Translations under genes and position numbers: made by a program
Origin: Melioribacteraceae bacterium
Lineage (GTDB): Bacteria > Bacteroidota > Ignavibacteria > Ignavibacteriales > Melioribacteraceae
DNA length: 46,379 nt
Direction of reading: 5' to 3'
NCBI GenBank assembly: GCA_022181065.1
Contig: BQMY01000102.1
Location: forward strand, 1-46,379
Shown: piece by piece, positions 19,937 through 46,379 of the stretch
How positions within the stretch are numbered: position 1 is the stretch's first letter
How the letters are laid out: each line of letters opens with the position of its first letter
Notes under the pieces: generated by a model
What the model saw: only the letters and a program-made list of their open reading frames with translations
What the model was told of the DNA's origin: nothing
The model's database searches: none

Positions 19937-20349
19937 TTGTCATGCCCAAGCCCCATCGGGCATCCAGTTTTTAAAATTGGCATATCCCCATCAGGATTGT
20001 TTGTGTAGCCTCCGTCTATTGACAAAATCTCTTCATCAAGGTGCTCCTTCTGAACCTGTGCGCCTCAGGCGTGGCGGTACTTAATAATCATTGTCATTCC
20101 CGTGAAAACGGGAATCCAGTCTTTTATGTTGGCACTTCTCAATCTGGGATGCTTTTGTAACAAAATCTCTTCTTCAAGGTCATCCTTCTGAACCTGTGCA
20201 CCTCAGGCGTGGCGGTACTTAATAATCATTGTCATTCCCGTGAAAACGGGAATCCAGTCTTTTATGTTGGCACTTCTCAATCTGGAATACTTTTGTAACA
20301 AAATCTCTTCTTCAAGGTCATCCTTCTGAACCTGTGCGCCTCAGGCGTA
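19937..20349. repeat. 138-bp tandem repeat with a conserved hairpin, plus a diverged copy
   Basis: Two nearly identical units (20022-20159 and 20160-20297) and a partial third (20298-20349) repeat with an exact period of 138 bp; for example AACCTGTG recurs at 20053, 20191 and 20329. Each full unit contains a hairpin, ATTCCCG-TGAAAA-CGGGAAT (20096-20115 and 20234-20253). A diverged unit precedes them: at 19942-19963 the stem reads ATGCCC/GGGCAT, followed by the same ATCCAGT and TTGGCA context. The stem thus keeps pairing although its bases change. It is non-coding, with function unknown. Confidence 0.85.
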
Positions 20350-25535: not shown

Positions 25536-26567
25536 TTACTTTTTCAACGCAAAAGAGAACTCACTCCCCTTTCCTAAAACACTTTTTACACTTATTTTCG
25601 ATTCATGCGCTTCGATGATATGCTTGACAATCGCCAGACCCAGACCTGTACCACCAACCGCGCGTGAACGATCCTTGTCAACACGGTAAAATCGTTCAAA
25701 TATTCTTAACTGATCCTCCTCGGATAGCCCGAATCCTGTGTCTTTAACAATTATTCTCGCGGTTTTATTTTCTTCCTCCTCGACAAGAACCTCAACACCA
25801 CCTTCTTCAGTATATTTTAACGCGTTCGAAAGCAAATTTACTAGTACCTGACGTAATTTCTTCTTATCTCCAAACACCTGAAGGTTATTTTTGATCGAAC
25901 CGACCTTCAATTCCAATCCCTTTTCTTCAGCAAAAGGTCTGAACTCTTCAACAAGTTCGGTGAGATACTCCTTGATATTAAAATACCGAAAGCTCATCCT
26001 CATCTGACCAGATTCTATCATGGAGATATCGATAAGATCATTGAGAAGATTATTAAGATTTTCAGTGTGCCTGGCTGCTTTTTCCAGGAATCCTCTGTTT
26101 ACACGCTCATCACTAATAGCTCCGTTAAGAAGCGTTTCAAGATATCCCTGAATGGCAAAAATAGGTGTTCGTAATTCATGCGAAACATTACCTAAAAATT
26201 CTGTCCTTACCTGTTCCAGTTTTTTCAGATTTATAATGTCATTTTGTGTGCGGAGAAACATTGCCTTAATCGCACCCTCAATTTCGTACAAATTACGACC
26301 AAGTTTAATTTCATCGGGTGAAATATATTCATTCTTGCGAATTGAGTTAAGAATAGTTTTTAACTGCTCCAGCTCGGTTCGTTTGCTCGCGCCCAAACGA
26401 TAAAGCAAAAGAAAATCAACTATCAACAGCAGGAAAGAGAATAATAATATTTCACGAAATGAAAACTGAAAGATGATTGAAATAAACAATATACTAAGCA
26501 ATGTAACATAAGTTACATCCTTGAAGTAAACTTTAGCTGAACCCAGGTTAATGCGGAGTTTATTCAT
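25536..26567 (-). CDS. Sensor histidine kinase, PhoR-like
   Basis: 343 residues from ATG 26565-26567, inside the last codons of the response-regulator gene (8-bp overlap ATGAATAA). Two close transmembrane helices (about 18-58) leave almost no periplasmic loop. A short linker follows, then HisKA with the H-box FLGNVSHELRTP (His130) and an HATPase domain with N-box NLLSNALKYTEEGG, G1 VKDTGFGLS and G2 GGTGLGLAIVKH. It autophosphorylates and passes phosphate to its partner regulator. The lack of a sensor loop recalls PhoR-type kinases that read transporter state, but the signal is unknown. The start overlap implies translational coupling. Confidence 0.9.
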   Translation of the reverse strand: MNKLRINLGSAKVYFKDVTYVTLLSILFISIIFQFSFREILLFSFLLLIVDFLLLYRLGASKRTELEQLKTILNSIRKNEYISPDEIKLGRNLYEIEGAIKAMFLRTQNDIINLKKLEQVRTEFLGNVSHELRTPIFAIQGYLETLLNGAISDERVNRGFLEKAARHTENLNNLLNDLIDISMIESGQMRMSFRYFNIKEYLTELVEEFRPFAEEKGLELKVGSIKNNLQVFGDKKKLRQVLVNLLSNALKYTEEGGVEVLVEEEENKTARIIVKDTGFGLSEEDQLRIFERFYRVDKDRSRAVGGTGLGLAIVKHIIEAHESKISVKSVLGKGSEFSFALKK

Positions 26568-27249
26568 CAGTCCTGAATCTATAACCCACACCTTTGATAG
26601 TTTCAATAATCCGGGAATGATCGCCTAATTTTTCCCTGATTTTCCTTACATGAACATCGATCGTTCTTTCAACAACATAAACATCACTGCCCCAAACATC
26701 CGAAAGAATTTTCTCACGCGGGAAAACTTTTCCGGGGTGAGCTGCAAGATAGCTTAAAATTTCAAATTCTTTCTTGGGGAAAACAGTAACTTCACCATCA
26801 ATAAGTATCTGGTATTTTTCACGGTCAATTTCCAGTGGTCCAGCTTTCAGAACTATATTCCCTGTTTCACCGGCAATGGCTTCTGCTTTGCGTAAATTTG
26901 ATTTTACTCTGGCTACAATTTTCTTTGGTGATACAGGTTTCTGAATAAAATCATCAGCACCCAGGTCAAGACCTTTAATCTCATCAACTTCGCTCGATTT
27001 TGCGGTGAGGAAAATAACCGGGATATTTTCGTGATCTTTATTTTCACGAAGCCGCGAACAGACTTCATATCCATCCATTTTAGGCATCATTACATCTAAA
27101 ATAATGAGGTCGGGTTTCTCCTTCACTTTATCGAGAGCCTCGACACCATCAAACGCGGTGATTACATCAAATCCCTCTTGTATAAGGTTGTACTGCAGAA
27201 ATTCAACAATATCCTTCTCATCATCAACGAGCAAGATTTTTGATTTCAT
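26560..27249 (-). CDS. OmpR/PhoB-family response regulator
   Basis: 229 residues. Receiver domain (1-120) with D9-D10, phosphoacceptor D52 (LIILDVMMPK), Thr in FLTAK and K in IQKPVSP. The C-terminal winged helix (about 130-226) has the OmpR-type pattern: FPKKEFEILSYLAAHPGKVFPREKIL, then VERTIDVHVRKIREKLGD and IKGVGYRF. It is closest in style to PhoB/PhoP regulators, which bind 11-bp direct repeats. A set of such repeats lies upstream of the TonB-dependent receptor at 45558-45601. It follows the oxidoreductase gene by 17 nt and overlaps the kinase gene. Confidence 0.93.
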   Translation of the reverse strand: MKSKILLVDDEKDIVEFLQYNLIQEGFDVITAFDGVEALDKVKEKPDLIILDVMMPKMDGYEVCSRLRENKDHENIPVIFLTAKSSEVDEIKGLDLGADDFIQKPVSPKKIVARVKSNLRKAEAIAGETGNIVLKAGPLEIDREKYQILIDGEVTVFPKKEFEILSYLAAHPGKVFPREKILSDVWGSDVYVVERTIDVHVRKIREKLGDHSRIIETIKGVGYRFRTDE

Positions 27250-37538: not shown

Positions 37539-39182
37539 CTATTTCAAAAGGGTCATTTTTCGGGTTATACTTTTACCCGAAGCTGTAAGTCTGTAAAAAT
37601 AAATTCCTGAACCTAACTCTGAAGCATCAAAAGAAACTGAATAACTTCCCTTTAACTTGTAATCGTCAACCAATGTTTCAACTTTTCTGCCTAAAACATC
37701 AAAAACCTGCAATTTTACCATTCCATCTTTCGATAGATTATAATTGATACTTGTGACAGGATTAAAAGGATTAGGATAATTCTGGTCTAACCGGAATTCA
37801 TTCACAACAAGGCTTGTCTCTTCCACATTTGTGAGAGTACTGTCATAAGATACAAATCTGACTGCATCAGCTACCACAAATTTTTGTGGTCCCGCGCTTG
37901 AATTATCAGAAATAATAACACTCTCCGATCCGTCACCTGAAAAATTGTATATCCCAATCAACTGCCAGGAAGAACCATTTTTACTCTGATCAACCCTGAC
38001 AGTATCTTCTCCATCTGCATGCTTAATAATATAAGGTGTGTCAGATGCTCTGTTGGTGGAAGCAACCCACCAGCCATAAACTTCGTATTCAGCCGTGCCA
38101 CCAAGAACCGGTAAAAACTCGGCATAACTTTCCCCTGTGCCCGCTTCATTCAATAAAGCCGGAGTTGTACCGTAATACCCGGCGTTAGCTGTGGGAAACC
38201 ATCCCTCTCCGTTTTGTGAGGCATTATCATATTCTGTGTCGATTATCTCTTCATAAGCGGGAGTTTTGGGTAAATTCAACGAGTCCCTGTGAGTAACAGC
38301 AAAAATAACCGGAAGCGAACGGGATTGGGACAGATTGACAAATTGATTTCCCACCGCCATCTGTGATGAGCCGCCACCGTCAAGATTCATGGCTGCGACA
38401 CACCCCAGATCAATAAATTCCTGTGCCATTTCAGGAAGTGATAATCCCTCCGAGGAAACAGCCCGTCCATCAGCAACCATTAAAATAACATGATTATCTT
38501 CGGTGTAGCCCAATGCGGTGCGCGGATCACGATTATCAAGCCCAACACCTGATCCCCACATTACTTCCTCATTGTAAGTAATGTTAATTTCTCCATCTTT
38601 AACGAGAACTGGTCCACCGCCAATGCCAACAAGCAAATCATCATACGAAGTACCCTCATTAATCGCAGGTGGCGCAAGCGGATTGGGATCATTATTCACA
38701 TATGGTAACGGGGCTTCATAGGTATAAACATTTTCCGGTAAATTACCGAAGTGGTAAATCCAGTCCACGCTGAAACCAAAAGAACTATCCATGCTGAACA
38801 TGCTCCTCGCAACGGGATAAGATTTCCCGTTTCTGGTGACAGCTGATACATTCTGGGCTTTAACTTCACCGGGATAAATAACGGCTGAGTAAGATGTTGT
38901 TCCTCCAAAATATCCACCATTTACAGCCGCGATAGCACCGAACCTTTTTGTCAACACAGGAACTGTTGCAATATCTCCTGTGATATAAGGTCGAACTGCC
39001 AGATTTTCGTTGTTCATATCAACGTCAATATAATATGCTTCCAGTTTTGGTGAAGTTCTTTCACCTTTAAACAGCTTTACACCTTCGGCGAGAGTATAAT
39101 TTGATGATACATCTGTCCATGTAATTTCCTGCGTAAAAACCACGGACGTTAAACACAATAAAACAAAATAAAATTTGTACAT
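37539..39182 (-). CDS. Secreted phosphodiester glycosidase-family protein with T9SS sorting domain
   Basis: 547 residues. Signal peptide (ending VFTQ). A NAGPA-type phosphodiester glycosidase domain at about 20-300 shows AAVNGGYFGG (about 84), LGYTEDNHVILMVADGR and NLDGGGSSQMA (about 269-279), the conserved parts of that family. A beta-sandwich like the golvesin/xanthan-lyase C-terminal domain covers about 315-455 (YEVYGWWVAS, FVVADAVRFV). The T9SS sorting domain starts at DQNYPNPFNPVTSI (about 468) and ends MTLLK. Characterised relatives remove GlcNAc from phosphodiester-linked sugars; here a surface glycan or teichoic-type polymer is a guess. It lies first in line with lolC/E-lolD. Confidence 0.88.
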   Translation of the reverse strand: MYKFYFVLLCLTSVVFTQEITWTDVSSNYTLAEGVKLFKGERTSPKLEAYYIDVDMNNENLAVRPYITGDIATVPVLTKRFGAIAAVNGGYFGGTTSYSAVIYPGEVKAQNVSAVTRNGKSYPVARSMFSMDSSFGFSVDWIYHFGNLPENVYTYEAPLPYVNNDPNPLAPPAINEGTSYDDLLVGIGGGPVLVKDGEINITYNEEVMWGSGVGLDNRDPRTALGYTEDNHVILMVADGRAVSSEGLSLPEMAQEFIDLGCVAAMNLDGGGSSQMAVGNQFVNLSQSRSLPVIFAVTHRDSLNLPKTPAYEEIIDTEYDNASQNGEGWFPTANAGYYGTTPALLNEAGTGESYAEFLPVLGGTAEYEVYGWWVASTNRASDTPYIIKHADGEDTVRVDQSKNGSSWQLIGIYNFSGDGSESVIISDNSSAGPQKFVVADAVRFVSYDSTLTNVEETSLVVNEFRLDQNYPNPFNPVTSINYNLSKDGMVKLQVFDVLGRKVETLVDDYKLKGSYSVSFDASELGSGIYFYRLTASGKSITRKMTLLK

Positions 39183-39568: not shown

Positions 39569-42526
39569 TTATTTCAATAAAGTCATTTTTTTAGCAACTG
39601 CGTTGTTACCAACTTCCAATCTGTAGATGTAAAGACCTGATGCAATGTTACCAGCATTCCACTTAACATTTACAGTACCCGCAGCCTGATGTCCATTCAA
39701 CAATGTAGCTACTTTCTGACCAAGAATGTTATAAACAGAAAGTTTAACATTCGCTGCTTCAGGAATAGCGAAAGTAATAGTTGTTGTCGGGTTGAACGGG
39801 TTAGGATAATTCTGTTCAAGAACGATATCTTCGGGAACAAGTTCGTTATCAACCGAGATTGATTCAACACCAGTAACGATTTCTGTTAAACCGCTCCATG
39901 CAGGAGAAGTGTTTGGAAGTGTTGGATCCAAAGTCTGAGTATAAGGAGTTCTTGTAATACTTACTAATGCAGGATCTTCAATTGTGTTGTTACCTGCTGC
40001 CAGTGGAGCAACTTCGTAAGCGTTTGTTGTGATAGTTTCAAGTGTGTTACCAGCGCCGAAGTCGAACCAGATGTTATTGTTAAATACAATTTCGCCGGCT
40101 TCAAGTCTTTCTCTTGTATCAGCACCTGAAGTAAGGTCTTCAACTTTGATCGCTTTATCTTTGAAATCACCAAAGATAGAGTTAGAATAAACACCACCCC
40201 AGTAATCTCTGATGTTGAAAGCAGCGTTTTCGTTTGTGTAAGCACTGCTAACACCAGAACCTAACCATGTTGCGTTGAAAGTCTGGTTGAATGAATAAGG
40301 AGCAGCATCTTCAGGATCAGTACCACCATCATGCTCACCAAGAGAACCACCAAATGTTGATTCCTGAATAGCGAACAAGAACTGCATTTTACCTCTGTAA
40401 CCATTATCATGGTCAAAAGCGTCATCTGCGTTAAAAGCTGAAACAAGGTGTTTTGAATTAACTGTACCACCGAACCATTCATAACCATCGTCATCATTGT
40501 TGAATACTTCAACGTAATCGATAGTTGTAGTAGCACCAACAGCACCCATTGTAAGACCGTTAATTTCATCACCGGTACCAAGTTTGGAACCACCGTGACG
40601 GATAGAAACATAAGTTAAATAACCTGAGTTATCATAATCGTTAGTTCCACCGAACTGAGATTTAGGAGATTCAGGGATACCTTCGATATAGCTGATTCCG
40701 TCAGGAGTATTTACAGTCGCATCACCAAGAATGATCAAACCGCCCCAAAGCGCCGAAGTTGGAAGTGTAATATCTGTAGGATCAGCAACGTCATCAATTT
40801 CTGATGTAAAGATAATAGGATTAACACCTGTACCTTCAGCGTATATTTTCGCGCCGCGAGAAATGATAAGAGCTGATGCGTTTTCAGCAGCACCTTCTTT
40901 AGCTTTGATTACAGTACCGGCTTCAATATTAAGTTCTGCGCCTTCTTCAACATAAACAAAACCGTCAAGCATATATGTATTATCTGCTGTCCAGTAAACT
41001 TTGTCGCCTGCGTTAATATCATCGTCAGTAACAGTAACAGTATTAGCTGAAGTAGCATCGTCAACAAGATAACCATAATGATCGAGTGCTGTCCAACCTT
41101 TTAACCAGTTAGTCGAACCAAAAGCACCTTTGTAATTAACTCTTGTATAGAACATGTCGCCTTCAGGATAGTCGGCAAGGTTCTGGTAAGCAGGACCATC
41201 ATGTTCAGGTCTTGGATCAAGATCACCTGTATAAGGTGTTCTTGCAATACCGTTTAGAACAGGGTCTTCAATTGTGTTATTACCTGCTACCAAAGGAGCA
41301 ACTTCGTAAGCGTTTGATGTAATAGCTTCAAGTGTGTTGCCTGCACCAAAATTGAACCAGATATTGTTGTTAAATTCAATTTCACCGGCTTCTAATCTCA
41401 TTCTTGAGTCGTTACCTGATGCCAGGTCTTCAACTTTGATAGCTTTATCTTTGTAATCACCAAAGATTGAGTTATTGTATGTACCACCCCAATAATCTCT
41501 GATGTTGAATGCAGCGTTTTCGTTTGTATAAGGACCATCAACGCCTGAACCTAACCATGTTGCGTTGTAAGTATGATTATAAGAAAATGGTTCTGCATCT
41601 TCAGGATCTGTACCACCGTCATGCTCACCTAATGAACCACCAAAAGCTGATTCCTGGATAGCGAACAAGAACTGCATTTTACCTCTGTAACCATTGTCGT
41701 GGTCAAAAGCGTCGTCTGCGTTAAAAGCAGAAACTAAATATTTTGAGTTAACTGTACCACCGAACCATTCGTAACCGTCGTCATCATTATTGAAAACTTC
41801 GATATATTCAACAGTAGTACCTCTACCAACAGCACCCATAGTAAGACCGTTAATCTCATCGCCGGTACCAAGTTTTGAACCACCGTGACGAATAGAAACG
41901 TATCTTAAAACACCTGAATTATCATCATCATCCTGTCCACCAAACTGAGATTTTGGTGATTCCGGGATACCTTCGATATAACTGATGCCGTCAGGAGTAT
42001 TTACAGTAGCAGCACCAAGAACGATAACACCACCCCAAAGAGCTGATGTAGGAAGAGTGATGTCAGTAGGATCGTTTACGTCATCAATTACTGAAGTAAA
42101 AATAATAGGAGCATCTGCTGTACCTTCAGCGTAAATTTTTGCGCCACGGGAAATAATCAAAGCTGATGCGTTCTCGGCTGAACCTTCAGCGGCTTTAACA
42201 ACTGTACCTGCCTGAATATTAAGTACCGCACCTTCTTCAACATAAACAAAACCATCTATGATATAGGTGTTGTCTGCTGTCCAATACACAACGTCATTAG
42301 CGTTGATATCAGCGTCGGTTACAGTAACAGTATTAGATGATGTTGCGTTTTCCGCAAGGTAACCATAATGATCAAGGGCTGTCCAGCCTTTCATCCAGTT
42401 AGTTTTACCAAATGCACCTTTATAATTCACCTGATTCCAGAAAGGATCAAATGATGCCTGAGCACTTACAAAAGTCATAGCTGTAAATGTCAGCAAAATT
42501 AAAGTGGTGAAGAACGCTTTCTTCAT
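39569..42526 (-). CDS. Duplicated-domain secreted protein with T9SS sorting domain
   Basis: 985 residues from ATG 42524-42526, which has GGAG 6 nt upstream; an ATG four codons earlier overlaps that ribosome site. Signal peptide (MKKAFFTTLILLTFTAMTFVSA). Two copies of a domain of about 420 residues follow, offset by 430 residues (about 32-445 and 462-880). Each contains VNYKGAFG-x-TNW, WTALDHYGYL, IISRGAKIYAEGT, SIRHGGSKLGTGDEINGLT and NDDDGYEWFGGTVNSK. The spacing of short strands suggests a right-handed beta-helix. The T9SS sorting domain starts near 902 (EQNYPNPFNPTTT). No catalytic residues are recognised. It follows the TonB-dependent receptor by 31 nt and probably works with it at the cell surface. 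Confidence 0.88.
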   Translation of the reverse strand: MKKAFFTTLILLTFTAMTFVSAQASFDPFWNQVNYKGAFGKTNWMKGWTALDHYGYLAENATSSNTVTVTDADINANDVVYWTADNTYIIDGFVYVEEGAVLNIQAGTVVKAAEGSAENASALIISRGAKIYAEGTADAPIIFTSVIDDVNDPTDITLPTSALWGGVIVLGAATVNTPDGISYIEGIPESPKSQFGGQDDDDNSGVLRYVSIRHGGSKLGTGDEINGLTMGAVGRGTTVEYIEVFNNDDDGYEWFGGTVNSKYLVSAFNADDAFDHDNGYRGKMQFLFAIQESAFGGSLGEHDGGTDPEDAEPFSYNHTYNATWLGSGVDGPYTNENAAFNIRDYWGGTYNNSIFGDYKDKAIKVEDLASGNDSRMRLEAGEIEFNNNIWFNFGAGNTLEAITSNAYEVAPLVAGNNTIEDPVLNGIARTPYTGDLDPRPEHDGPAYQNLADYPEGDMFYTRVNYKGAFGSTNWLKGWTALDHYGYLVDDATSANTVTVTDDDINAGDKVYWTADNTYMLDGFVYVEEGAELNIEAGTVIKAKEGAAENASALIISRGAKIYAEGTGVNPIIFTSEIDDVADPTDITLPTSALWGGLIILGDATVNTPDGISYIEGIPESPKSQFGGTNDYDNSGYLTYVSIRHGGSKLGTGDEINGLTMGAVGATTTIDYVEVFNNDDDGYEWFGGTVNSKHLVSAFNADDAFDHDNGYRGKMQFLFAIQESTFGGSLGEHDGGTDPEDAAPYSFNQTFNATWLGSGVSSAYTNENAAFNIRDYWGGVYSNSIFGDFKDKAIKVEDLTSGADTRERLEAGEIVFNNNIWFDFGAGNTLETITTNAYEVAPLAAGNNTIEDPALVSITRTPYTQTLDPTLPNTSPAWSGLTEIVTGVESISVDNELVPEDIVLEQNYPNPFNPTTTITFAIPEAANVKLSVYNILGQKVATLLNGHQAAGTVNVKWNAGNIASGLYIYRLEVGNNAVAKKMTLLK

Positions 42527-42557
42527 GAATATCTCCATTTTTTGTTTGTGTTATTAG

Positions 42558-45494
42558 TTATAAACTATATTTAACACCCAAGGATATAGAAGTACCCTTC
42601 GTGGCTGCCTCATAGGTATATGTTGTACCTAGAAATTCCTGTGTTTTTTCTTCTTTGCTGTTCAGAAGATTTGTTATTGATACTTTTGCGGAAATATTAT
42701 CAATAATTGTTTTCGACAAGCTGAAGTTTAACAGATGGAACGGCTGTTCGTAAACGTCAGGCGCGCCGGAGAAACCAACTGCGATAAGGCGTTCTCCAAA
42801 TACGTTGTAGAACAATGATGCGTTCAATCCGTAATCATAATTATCATAGTTAAGGTTAAGATTTATCAGGTATGGAGACTGACCGTGGAAAGGTCTTACA
42901 TCATCCGCGCCCGGATCATATAATCTTAACAGATTCAATTCTTGTTCGGGTATTTTTACTTCCGAAGTAATAAATGAGACGTTGCCGCCGAATGTAAAAT
43001 CGCTCAACATTTCGGTAAGAAGATCAAGTCTTTCTCTCAATTCAAATTCAACACCGTAAACAATAGCTTCATTTACGTTATTCCATTTAAGCTTAACGGT
43101 ACTGTTGTTAAAGTCTGTGATCTGCAAAACTATCGGATCAACGAACTTTTTGTAAAAACCGCTAACTGCTATTATTTCTCCGGGACCTGTAAAATATTCA
43201 AATCTTAAATCGTAGTTATCTACCAAAGTTCTTTTAAGGTTTCTGTTACCAACGAAAACGTCACCTCCGTTAAAGTCGCGATTTTCAAAAAATGAAGCGA
43301 TCTCTCTATAGGTAGGTCTTGCAAGAGTTTTACCGAATGAAGCTCTTACGTTAACATCTTCAATAACATTATATATCATGTTTACTGAAGGAAGAATATC
43401 AGAAGTATTAACCTCCGCGGTTGAATCAGGTTCTTCGTTGAAGACTTTCATTCTGGTTTCTTCGTAACGAGCACCGGTGATAAGTCTGAGGTTATCGAGC
43501 AATGGGAGGTCAAACATCGCGTAAGTTGCGTTGATATCGCGGTTACCGGAATAATTACTTTTACTCTTGTCAAGTTCCTGGATGTAAACACCCATAATGT
43601 TATTTACTCTTTCGAAACCACCGAACCTGATTGTATCCTGACCTAGCAAGCCGGTATATTCATCAAAATATCGTTCAATATTACCATTCATTGTATCCAT
43701 AACAACGCTGAATGTCTGAGCGAAATTTTCATAACTGAAGGTTCTTTCGAGGAAGTCACGGCGTTTATTCTGGAAAAATCCCCCGACCTTTAGCGAGCTT
43801 TTCGCGTCAGTAAGGAAGTTGAATGGAATTGTGATATCGAGTTTGGCGCTTCTCTGGTTTTCTTTGGTATATCTGTAAAATCTTTCAGGATTTTCAGTAG
43901 TCTGTACAGAATAGTTTGTATCAATTATATTATCAAAATCATCATACTTATAAGTTCTCGACATATAGAAGTAACGAAGATCCGGCTCATCCTGGTTACT
44001 TTCGAGGAATGAACCCTGCCATTCAATTTTGACGTCAAGTAAATCTTTCAAAAAGTGCTGACCTTCCATCTGAACAGAGTATAATGATCTGTCTTTATAT
44101 CCTGTGTTATTAACTGACCATAAACCAGTACTTGAATATGGGAACTCACCACTTAACTCTTTAGCGAAACTTTCCCCGTTCTGGTTAAATAAACCATTAA
44201 CGCTCAGAATATGATTAGGTGTCAGTTTATAAGAACCCTTTAAGATCGCACCCCAGAGAACATCGTGTGAAGTTGATTTTTCATTAAAATTTTTCAGCAT
44301 GTCAAGCTGTCTTTTACTTGTATCTTTAACAGCTCTTTCCCAACGGCTATATTGACCATTTGTATAACCGCTAACACCATTTTTGTATGTTAAACTGGCA
44401 ATGAAACCAAACGGTCTGTCAAATACATCAACCTGGTTACCAATTGAAAGGGAGTAACTCTGATTTAATGGCGCGCCATTTGTAAACGGTCCAAACTTTG
44501 TATTATTAAATGCTTTAACAGCATCATTATTAGCCCGGGCGACTGAGTCCTTGTTAAATTCTTTTGACAATTCGAGGAAATTTCCCGCGATACCGGGTAT
44601 ATCTCTTGAACCGTCATCATACCCGAGAAAGTCAGTATCAGATGATATTACTTCAAGCATATCACCGTTACCGGTACTTTCTGAGTTATAAGTAGAAGAT
44701 GCCGAGAAGTTGAATGTCAATTTTTCGGGAAAGTTTTTTGTAGTAACGTCAACCGCGCCACCGGAAAAGTCACCCGGTTTGTCGGGTGTAAAACTTTTAA
44801 CAGCCTGAATATTTTCGATAAGAGATGACGGGATAATATCAACAGAACCCGAACGTTTGTAAGGATCAACAGATGGAATTTCAGCTCCGTTCAACTGTGT
44901 TGAGGTATATCTGTCGCCAAGACCGCGAACGTAAACTTCCTTACCTTCAACTACCGAGGCTCCTACGATCTGCTTTACAGCTTCAGCCGCGTTTCCACTT
45001 CCACTTCTGCTGAACTGTTCTGCGGAAATAGCGTCACTAACCTGAATTGATTTTTGTCTTTTTATAAGCAATCCGGCTTCCGAGTTCTGCACAGCCTTTG
45101 CTGTTACAACAACTTCCTCGGTCTGGATTGATTCCATATTCATTGTTATATCAAGCTTAACAACTTGCCCGGGTTCAACCACAACACCGGTAACAGATTT
45201 TTTCGCGTAACCGATCATTGAAAACACAACAGTATATGTACCTGCAGGAACCGCTTTAATAGTGTAGCGTCCTTCGATATCAGTTGCCGCCCCGAGAGAT
45301 GTTGTTTCAATAAAAACGTTCGCGCCAATCATGCCTTCACCAAAGTCGCCATCAATTACAAGACCGGTGATTGAACCTTTTTCCTGGGCGAATGCCGAGA
45401 ATGAAAAGATTAGAAATAAAATGAGGGTATTTCGAAATGAAATAAATTTAAGATGCTCTTCCGAGCGGGCGTAGAATTTTTTTAAATGTTGCAT
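42558..45494 (-). CDS. TonB-dependent receptor with N-terminal carboxypeptidase-regulatory-like domain
   Basis: 978 residues. Signal sequence at about 22-37 (ending FAQ), preceded by an unusually long charged n-region. A carboxypeptidase-D regulatory-like beta-sandwich covers about 40-125 (GSITGLVIDGDFGEGMIGANV, GTYTVVFSMIGYA); TonB-box-like TEEVVVTA at about 125; plug domain to about 250 (EVYVRGLGDRYTSTQLNGAEIPS). The beta-barrel ends in GVKYSL. It imports a bound ligand across the outer membrane, driven by TonB. No SusD gene follows, so it is not a standard SusCD pair; the next gene is the duplicated-domain T9SS cargo. ATG 45492-45494 has AAGGAG 11 nt upstream. Upstream lie four 11-bp repeats resembling a Pho box. 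Confidence 0.92.
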   Translation of the reverse strand: MQHLKKFYARSEEHLKFISFRNTLILFLIFSFSAFAQEKGSITGLVIDGDFGEGMIGANVFIETTSLGAATDIEGRYTIKAVPAGTYTVVFSMIGYAKKSVTGVVVEPGQVVKLDITMNMESIQTEEVVVTAKAVQNSEAGLLIKRQKSIQVSDAISAEQFSRSGSGNAAEAVKQIVGASVVEGKEVYVRGLGDRYTSTQLNGAEIPSVDPYKRSGSVDIIPSSLIENIQAVKSFTPDKPGDFSGGAVDVTTKNFPEKLTFNFSASSTYNSESTGNGDMLEVISSDTDFLGYDDGSRDIPGIAGNFLELSKEFNKDSVARANNDAVKAFNNTKFGPFTNGAPLNQSYSLSIGNQVDVFDRPFGFIASLTYKNGVSGYTNGQYSRWERAVKDTSKRQLDMLKNFNEKSTSHDVLWGAILKGSYKLTPNHILSVNGLFNQNGESFAKELSGEFPYSSTGLWSVNNTGYKDRSLYSVQMEGQHFLKDLLDVKIEWQGSFLESNQDEPDLRYFYMSRTYKYDDFDNIIDTNYSVQTTENPERFYRYTKENQRSAKLDITIPFNFLTDAKSSLKVGGFFQNKRRDFLERTFSYENFAQTFSVVMDTMNGNIERYFDEYTGLLGQDTIRFGGFERVNNIMGVYIQELDKSKSNYSGNRDINATYAMFDLPLLDNLRLITGARYEETRMKVFNEEPDSTAEVNTSDILPSVNMIYNVIEDVNVRASFGKTLARPTYREIASFFENRDFNGGDVFVGNRNLKRTLVDNYDLRFEYFTGPGEIIAVSGFYKKFVDPIVLQITDFNNSTVKLKWNNVNEAIVYGVEFELRERLDLLTEMLSDFTFGGNVSFITSEVKIPEQELNLLRLYDPGADDVRPFHGQSPYLINLNLNYDNYDYGLNASLFYNVFGERLIAVGFSGAPDVYEQPFHLLNFSLSKTIIDNISAKVSITNLLNSKEEKTQEFLGTTYTYEAATKGTSISLGVKYSL

Positions 45495-45557
45495 AAGGTT
45501 TATGTCTCCTTTTCTCCTTCCAAAAAGAAAATTTGTTTAGGTAGGAAACATAAGAAT

Positions 45558-45601
45558 GCAATATTAACTCATGATTAAGAGGGCGTTAAGAAATTGTTAA
45601 C
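45558..45601 (-). promoter_or_regulatory. Four 11-bp direct repeats, Pho-box-like
   Basis: TTAA cores at 45564, 45575, 45586 and 45597, exactly 11 bp apart. Read on the coding strand the units begin GTTAACA, CTTAACG, CTTAATC and GTTAATA. A looser TTAA follows 12 bp on, at 45609. PhoB/PhoP-family regulators bind direct repeats with this 11-bp period, and a TATGTT -10-like element lies about 10 nt downstream of the last core. The site is about 65-110 nt before the TonB-dependent receptor start. The regulator assignment is inference. Confidence 0.6.
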
Positions 45602-45664
45602 AAAAATCTTAAAAAGGTAATACGGGGAAAACTTTAGACTATAAAACTTTTATTCTGTCGATTA

Positions 45665-46379
45665 TTACTGGACGATAAGCTCTTCCCTTTTCCATTTTTT
45701 AAGATGAGATTTTATAAAATCAATAACTCTGTTATGTTCATCAGTACCACTGCCTTCCACCTTGAAAGCCTTACCAAAAGCTATGTGAATTTCCTTCGTG
45801 GTATCAATTTTACCTACATCCTTGATGAGTGAGCCGTTACCCCAGCAATCGGTAACCAGAGCTACCGGGACAACATAACAATCGTTTCGTTTGGCTAACT
45901 TTACACCAAGCGAGTTAAAACTTTTACTATCAAAAAACTTCGATCTGGTTTTTTGCGGAAATATAATTATACTTCTGCCATCTTCTATCATCTTCGCGCC
46001 TTCGGTCATTACAATTTTAAGGTCTTCACGAGGATTTGATCTCCCCACAAGAATAGGATGGCGGGCAGCGGCGATTGGTCCGAACAGAGGATATTTTGTA
46101 AGTTCCTGCTTGATAATATAAACCACATTTGTGATCGGCTGAATAAAACCGGGCAGCAGCATAGTTTCAGCCGTGCTCATATGGTTACCGATAAAAATTA
46201 CAGGTCGATCAAGCCCTTTGAAATTATCAAGACCTGTTACGTAAACCTGCGCACCAACTGATTCGAGCGCATGGAGCACATCAAATGAGGATGCGGTCCA
46301 GTTGAAACGGTGGTAAATTTTCCTTCTAACTTTAATATTCGATTTTGTAAGAATGCCTAAAAGACGTAAATAATAGGAA
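45665..46379 (-). CDS. PlsC-family lysophospholipid acyltransferase (5' end outside window)
   Basis: The frame is open from the stop at 45665-45667 to the right edge (238 codons); the upstream residues (YLRLLGILTKSNIKVRRKIY) read like the N-terminal part of the protein, so a start inside the window at the GTG 46279 is unlikely. The acyltransferase motifs are altered: block I is NHMSTAET (H-x4-E instead of H-x4-D) and block III FPQKTRS instead of FPEGTRS. Family members acylate lysophosphatidate or related lysophospholipids at the inner membrane. The altered blocks suggest a distinct subgroup. It is 170 nt upstream of the TonB receptor gene on the same strand, but the Pho-like site in between suggests separate control. 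Confidence 0.85.
   Translation of the reverse strand, partial: SYYLRLLGILTKSNIKVRRKIYHRFNWTASSFDVLHALESVGAQVYVTGLDNFKGLDRPVIFIGNHMSTAETMLLPGFIQPITNVVYIIKQELTKYPLFGPIAAARHPILVGRSNPREDLKIVMTEGAKMIEDGRSIIIFPQKTRSKFFDSKSFNSLGVKLAKRNDCYVVPVALVTDCWGNGSLIKDVGKIDTTKEIHIAFGKAFKVEGSGTDEHNRVIDFIKSHLKKWKREELIVQ

Follow-up and report, generated by a model that had tools for sequence, protein, structure and literature searches.

The window analysed here, i.e. the whole stretch of 46,379 nucleotides (positions 1 to 46,379 of contig BQMY01000102.1 of a Melioribacteraceae bacterium), carries close to its right-hand end the gene for a TonB-dependent receptor, the gene for a secreted partner protein and, in front of both, a row of short direct repeats. 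The features that matter for the following are:

45665..46378, (-) strand: acyltransferase gene upstream of the array, running off the window
45608..45612, (-) strand: possible fifth, degenerate unit TTAAG, with a TTAA at 45609, 12 bp upstream of the first unit
45563..45600, (-) strand: putative Pho-operator array of four TTAAC/T units with an 11-bp period, unit starts at 45600, 45589, 45578 and 45567
45545..45552, (-) strand: predicted -7 promoter element TATGTTTC, i.e. TAnnTTTG with one mismatch
42558..45494, (-) strand: TonB-dependent receptor of 978 aa (CarboxypepD_reg-like domain, plug and barrel)
39569..42538, (-) strand: T9SS-secreted protein of 989 aa, assigned to the ElpS/FII kind, with two tandem domains of ~430 aa and a Por_Secre_tail
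37539..39182, (-) strand: T9SS-secreted NAGPA-type phosphodiester glycosidase, downstream, a possible further member of the unit
26560..27249, (-) strand: PhoB-like response regulator, the presumed reader of the array
25536..26606, (-) strand: PhoR-like histidine kinase, overlapping phoB

The array and the genes behind it

Four TTAA cores (45564, 45575, 45586, 45597) follow one another at exact 11-bp steps in the 170-bp gap (45495-45664) between the acyltransferase and receptor genes. Read on the gene strand (-), the four units TTAACAATTTC, TTAACGCCCTC, TTAATCATGAG and TTAATATTGCA are of the TTAAC/T type, the final two being TTAAT; the array ends at -69 relative to the ATG of the receptor gene, and from the start of the last unit (45567) to that of TATGTTTC the distance is exactly 15 bp. 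The additional TTAA (45609) misses the register of the four cores by one base. A Pho box comprises at least two direct repeats at an 11-bp period, and here four units stand in register. The first-pass annotation, made from the letters alone, had described these cores at coordinates that proved exact, as a Pho-box-like array preceding a TonB receptor and a T9SS cargo protein, and both genes are confirmed. Its remark that the pattern is absent upstream of the other envelope genes in the window agrees with our result: a scan of the whole window returned no second set of three TTAAC units at 11 bp with at most two mismatches. In dinucleotide shuffles of 45495-45664, four TTAA at 11 bp arose once in 20,000, and four TTAA at any period from 7 to 24 nine times in 20,000. 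Elsewhere in the window, a 138-bp tandem repeat (20022-20348; 2.4 copies, 96% matching) occupies the gap before a 1353-aa gene.

The receptor scored 55.9 bits against the SusC-type model TIGR04056, the cut-off of which is 368.25 bits, and its secreted partner matched no SusD family in Pfam or NCBIfam (E 0.001); a SusD-like partner was rejected on this result. Inspected by eye, the N-terminus of the partner is a signal-like stretch without cysteine, i.e. without a lipoprotein anchor, and the C-terminus is a T9SS sorting domain. The two ~430-aa domain copies are 80% identical, in keeping with the duplicated-domain protein of the first-pass annotation. The first domain is predicted to fold as a right-handed beta-helix: its AlphaFold2 model (pLDDT 87.3) resembles lyases, epimerases and tailspikes (VIA-align Z ~19-22), and the fold assignment rests on this model and these Z scores, the Foldseek search with the model having given no match at E <=0.001 and the search of solved structures by sequence none at E 1. 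The first-pass annotation saw in it a secreted protein in place of SusD; by our analysis the partner is not an undescribed stand-in for SusD and probably a beta-helix protein of the ElpS/FII kind.

The pairing of receptor and secreted protein is nearly constant. Of the 80 named receptor loci, taken with flanks of up to 7 kb, 75 also encode a core homolog of the secreted protein, and it is missing from five (L193, L218, L223, L226 and L244). According to their record titles, the receptor loci belong to Melioribacteraceae, Ignavibacteria, Calditrichia, Saprospiraceae, Flavobacteria and Bacteroidales, and also to Gemmatimonadetes, Poribacteria, Verrucomicrobia and others. In relatives, the receptor gene often has the acyltransferase gene beside it. 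As a constant member the NAGPA-type glycosidase was rejected: its domain (residues 61-310) matched just L162 among the open frames of L150-L269.

Several further arrangements were seen around the pair. Close to the receptor pair in L164 (14010-15665) and L186 (5005-6657), both Pfam-tested, a PstS-type gene adjoins the gene of an M28-family peptidase, and genes of like size occupy the same place in several other loci. On a Pseudoalteromonas donghaensis replicon (L271), a large beta-helix homolog (4101-bp gene) has ExbB/ExbD/TonB genes on one side and a TonB receptor gene on the other, this receptor being 27% identical to the window receptor over about 900 positions. In L195 (9882-11511) the beta-helix gene is split in two open frames, perhaps by an assembly frameshift.

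Recurrence of the array in this genome and in relatives

The exact pattern of three TTAA cores occurs at eight places in the 4.9-Mb genome (11 overlapping matches per strand), compared to seven matches per strand for the reversed pattern, and three cores alone are therefore mildly unusual and prove little. Just three places have all four cores in register, i.e. the window array, C74:52530-52566 before a calcineurin-type phosphoesterase gene, and C95:35158-35194 before the gene for a T9SS-secreted choice-of-anchor-I protein. A three-core site on C120 lies between divergent genes, one product of which is T9SS-secreted with a 5'-nucleotidase C-terminal domain; at the sites on C21 (Piwi), C75 and C89 (efflux) no phosphate link is visible among the neighbouring genes. 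In the pst operon of this genome (C81: coaD, pstS, C, A, B, phoU), just two units (TTAAT, TTAAC) stand in register at the pstS promoter, and the set before phoU is imperfect; the best proof must therefore come from relatives. The exact composite TTAAC-N6-TTAAC-N10-TAnnTTTG has no match in this genome. Genome-wide searches with looser patterns were uninformative, both for the TTAAC pattern with two mismatches allowed (24+26 vs 21+20 in the control) and for variable gaps (8+13 vs 16+12). Because these genome-wide patterns are weak, we relied on conservation and on exact patterns in relatives.

The C74 site is in fact part of two adjacent arrays, of three and four units, 14 bp apart (C74:52494-52566; L013 9495-9567). 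On one side of this double array is the metallophosphoesterase gene and on the other a divergent sugar-acid-type cluster (glycerophosphotransferase-like protein, cytidylyltransferase, split transketolase, aminotransferase, SDR and KdsC-like phosphatase); the divergent phosphoesterase/glycerophosphotransferase-like order is seen again in L163. Further TTAAC rows lie near response-regulator genes, at C103:22714-22762 (regulator at C103:22900) and, with mixed 10/11-bp spacing, at C74:116007-116042 (RprY-like regulator at C74:117626).

The receptor was sought in this genome and 57 relatives (58 genomes), which gave, apart from the window receptor itself, ~33 orthologs, some of them partial, the best 29 of which (34-55% identical, two with short upstream DNA) were tested for the array. 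Three TTAAC units at 11 bp were present upstream of 27 of these 29 with at most two mismatches in 15 positions and upstream of 20 with at most one; the two exceptions have three (L064) and four (L076) mismatches. At six other periods between 8 and 14, a single one of 174 ortholog cells reached at most two mismatches. None of 20 paralogous TonB receptors of the same genomes, hand-picked from a much longer list of receptor matches, is preceded by the array.

In the 58 genomes the exact three-unit array has 45 matches compared to four for the control, an excess that goes against the idea that random A/T-rich intergenic DNA would be matched as often. The 45 matches form 31 clusters, of which (i) 16 lie at the receptor gene, one of them at a receptor fragment (G025:C288), (ii) 10 lie at pst loci, (iii) one is that of the metallophosphoesterase of the present genome and (iv) four lie elsewhere. 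At the pst loci, the arrays are located directly before pstS or before some other gene that comes first in the pst operon, such as that of a porin or of a phosphonate-binding protein; in G040, array and pst genes lie on opposite strands. The four arrays elsewhere comprise one before a CHAD gene (G024) and three (G053, G007, G023:C47) for which no phosphate tie was found, with GNAT, acetolactate decarboxylase and carbonic anhydrase genes nearby. The genome-wide scan proposed in the first-pass annotation thus does place array matches before pst and other phosphate genes, mainly in relatives.

Among 31 PBP/PstS-type genes, one of which (L107) has an uncertain frame, five have the array upstream with at most one mismatch at 11 bp, whereas the six other periods gave no such case. 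Among unlabelled neighbourhood genes, 18 of 169 also have the array (at most two mismatches); several of these head pst operons, and for others no role in phosphate metabolism is known. Of the 33 receptor matches, 13 have a PstS-type gene at a distance of no more than 10 kb.

The array was also sought in 46 loci, in 36 of which the gene for the secreted protein comes first, an order found in many Bacteroidota loci, and in 10 of which it lies downstream of the receptor gene. With at most two mismatches at 11 bp, the array precedes the secreted-protein gene in 17 of the 36, and is found in one of the 10 receptor-first loci (L269, two mismatches), with none in the 46 at six other periods. Among the secreted-protein-first arrays with at most three mismatches, a -7 element begins at +15 or +26 from the start of the last unit in 14 of 26, as a raw count without shuffle control. 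The operator thus tends to stand before whichever gene heads the operon.

These data bear directly on the possibility that the TTAA cores of the window array line up by chance, in intergenic DNA that is rich in A/T. Apart from the mild enrichment of three cores over the reversed pattern in this genome, which such a reading would accommodate, the rarity of the row in shuffles, its conservation before receptor orthologs, its absence before paralogous receptors and its fixed spacing to the -7 element in most cases (see below) speak against it; we reject a chance origin and regard its probability as negligible.

Promoter geometry and the candidate regulator

In Bacteroides the consensus of the -7 element is TANNTTTGY (PMC12632263). 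We determined the position of the best -7 match (TAnnTTTG, at most one mismatch) relative to the start of the last unit for 52 arrays before receptor genes (at most three mismatches), drawn from named and unnamed loci alike, a set in which the near-identical or repeated records L068/L196, L064/L190 and L077/L207 are all counted. The match lies at +15 in 35 of the 52, and 17 lack a best match there; three arrays with another distance still keep the 11-bp phase, one with +26 and two, identical in sequence, with +37. The window element, at +15, has one mismatch. In 500 shuffles, the maximum in any 5-position window was 10. A Pho box typically ends about 10 bp upstream of a -10/-7 element, and the 35 arrays have this arrangement. 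At sites away from the receptor and in other orientations (n = 31), the spacing is looser, with six at +15 and two at +26.

The composite TTAAC-N6-TTAAC-N10-TAnnTTTG, searched in 294 genomes of the class, has 35 matches compared to eight for the control, again an excess. The matches are spread over 32 genomes and 17 of 151 genera, and 30 loci were examined for gene content, leaving aside five of the 35 matches. Phosphorus-type genes follow the composite in 24 of these 30: four PBP/PstS-type genes, four receptor genes (the fourth, L301, assigned by coordinates), two genes for phosphate-selective porin O/P, one CHAD gene, two PhoB-like genes, one acid phosphatase gene, seven 5'-nucleotidase-like genes and three metallophosphoesterase genes. 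The last two groups are not independent because all come from one genus (g70), and of the seven 5'-nucleotidase-like genes one was checked with Pfam and six were assigned by BLAST at 23-25% identity to the 5'-nucleotidase-domain protein of the present genome. The loci not counted as phosphorus-type are L294 (BNR/sortilin), L298 (histidine kinase), L309, L310 (STAS) and, left uncounted without a Pfam test, L295 and L312.

The PhoB/PhoR-like pair that had been placed at 25.5-27.2 kb of the window is confirmed, with the PhoR-like kinase at 25536-26606 and the PhoB-like regulator at 26560-27249. The regulator is the best match of the genome to the PhoB model (about 226 bits), and among families it fits the Bacteroidetes PhoB model best (239.7 bits). 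Because it lies below the curated equivalog cut-offs of NF053854 (239.7 vs 270) and TIGR02154 (226.7 vs 296.2) and yet is the best PhoB match of the genome, we refer to it as PhoB-like. The three other full-length regulators of the genome have YycF or RprY as their best family.

OmpR-family regulators commonly bind direct repeats of this type. The array might therefore be the operator of another member of this family that shares the 11-bp head-to-tail binding, e.g. a YycF/MtrA-like regulator encoded on C104 or C79, both of which also exceed 200 bits on the PhoB model. Against this, 12 of 14 full-length regulators encoded in receptor or pst loci, a set that includes those of the near-duplicates L151 and L190, match the window PhoB best among the four candidates of the genome, most of them by clear margins, and the genes under the array are largely phosphate-related, making a different OmpR-family reader improbable. 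A PhoB ortholog is encoded just before the receptor in L151 and L158, and just before the pst operon in L183, where the array lies between the two.

By combining the conservation of the array, its recurrence before phosphate genes, the spacing to the -7 element and the identity of the best PhoB match, we conclude that the array is very probably a Pho operator read by PhoB, which would switch on the receptor and the beta-helix protein. The core idea of the first-pass annotation, a Pho-box-like array before an uptake pair, is thereby supported at the level of sequence, and we infer from the same data that PhoB binds to the array and that expression depends on phosphate. In Bacteroides fragilis, PhoB binds the pstC promoter, for which the accessible part of the report maps no site (PMC3547664).

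Comparison with known systems and a working model

The closest known operators are those of cyanobacteria and Escherichia coli. The SphR Pho box of cyanobacteria, CTTAACCT with a 3-bp linker (PMC1906773), has the same TTAAC core, the same 11-bp period and at least three tandem units before pst and phosphatase genes. It differs in that the arrays described here mostly have 3-6 units, that CT follows the core in the SphR box whereas here TTAAC is mostly followed by A (0.76) and next by T (0.53, 0.67), and that the last unit here usually lies 15 bp before the Bacteroidota -7 box TAnnTTTG. The Pho box of E. coli PhoB likewise consists of tandem 11-bp direct repeats (PMC4415409, PMC1906773), with the core CTGTCAT in place of TTAAC and a -10 element in place of the -7 box; E. 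coli Pho boxes lie 10 bp upstream of the -10 element (PMC1906773), a spacing equal to TTAAC plus 10 here. Among the matches listed in the open-access PMC literature, we found no description of the operator code and its -7 spacing for Bacteroidota or Ignavibacteria.

The receptor/secreted-protein pair, on the other hand, is already known in kind (ElpS/FII). According to the report on Caulobacter (PMC2996285), ElpS (cc0170) and the TonB receptor cc0171 adjoin type II secretion genes, ElpS is secreted at low phosphate and has no phosphatase activity of its own, and cc0171 is expressed both in rich and in poor media. The window pair resembles ElpS/cc0171 as a TonB receptor with a putative low-phosphate secreted protein; ElpS, however, is a lipoprotein released via T2SS, whereas the window protein carries its domain twice in tandem and ends in a T9SS tail. 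A Sphingomonas plasmid locus encodes homologs of both window proteins together with a T2SS, and its order of genes for secreted protein, TonB receptor and T2SS is that described for Caulobacter ElpS and relatives (PMC2996285). The core of the window protein is 38% identical to the Sphingomonas homolog over 240 aa (E 1e-31), and it is through this homolog that the likeness to ElpS/FII is drawn.

In Flavobacterium johnsoniae, a phoBR cluster encodes the low-phosphate-induced TonB-dependent transporter Fjoh_0545 and pectin-lyase-fold lipoprotein FII (Fjoh_0546), and FI-FIII, the models of which are polygalacturonase-like, are reported to be related to a low-phosphate Caulobacter lipoprotein (PMC8115612), presumably ElpS. 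This cluster resembles the window by description, i.e. in PhoBR, a TonB receptor and a pectin-lyase-fold exoprotein, and differs in that FII has a lipoprotein anchor and the window protein a T9SS tail; the main text of the paper, in which neither a motif nor a promoter nor a Pho box is mentioned, describes no operator. The neighbouring TonB receptor and the pectin-lyase-like beta-helix of the model are shared with ElpS/FII, and by the Sphingomonas homolog, the gene order and the predicted fold we provisionally assign the secreted partner to this kind.

We suggest the following mechanism: at low phosphate, PhoR would phosphorylate PhoB, and PhoB dimers would sit head-to-tail on the four 11-bp units, the last of which (TTAAC plus 10 bp to the -7 element) would support recruitment of RNA polymerase. 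The array would replace the -33 region, such that a promoter with a -7 box could do without a -33 box, and PhoB at the array would turn on expression of the TonB receptor and of the beta-helix protein exported by the T9SS. In our working model, which we consider evenly poised between being right and being wrong, the secreted protein would capture or process some phosphorus-containing ligand at the cell surface, and the receptor would then import it. Alternatively, PhoB could control the pair for a purpose other than phosphorus import, i.e. surface remodelling, attachment or glycan use needed at low phosphate. The modelled fold, which is that of polysaccharide lyases, epimerases and tailspikes, and the reported lack of phosphatase activity of Caulobacter ElpS itself (PMC2996285) fit this reading; the physical linkage of the pair, seen in many genomes, to pstSCAB-phoU and to genes of the PstS and phosphoesterase types speaks against it, and we regard a non-import role as a tentative possibility.

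In total, the sequence data show the array, its conservation, the -7 spacing at most receptor genes, the recurrence before pst, porin, phosphatase and phoB-like genes, and the near-constant pairing of receptor and secreted protein; the beta-helix fold is a prediction from the model. From these we lean slightly towards a broader scheme in which one operator code, i.e. two to six TTAAC units, one every 11 bp, of which the last lies 15 or 26 bp ahead of TAnnTTTG, would be common to the PhoB proteins of Ignavibacteria-type bacteria and of a large part of Bacteroidota. In this scheme the most constant target would be the receptor/beta-helix pair, acting in SusD-less uptake of a phosphorus compound at the outer membrane.

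Such a code would provide a readable phosphate-starvation operator for a large and mostly uncultured group, in which Pho regulons are otherwise guessed from gene content, and the composite motif could be used for listing candidate Pho genes in metagenomes. A widespread receptor/secreted-protein pair would be tied to phosphate starvation by operator, neighbourhood and conservation together, and the old question of what an ElpS-like protein and its receptor do would become directly testable.
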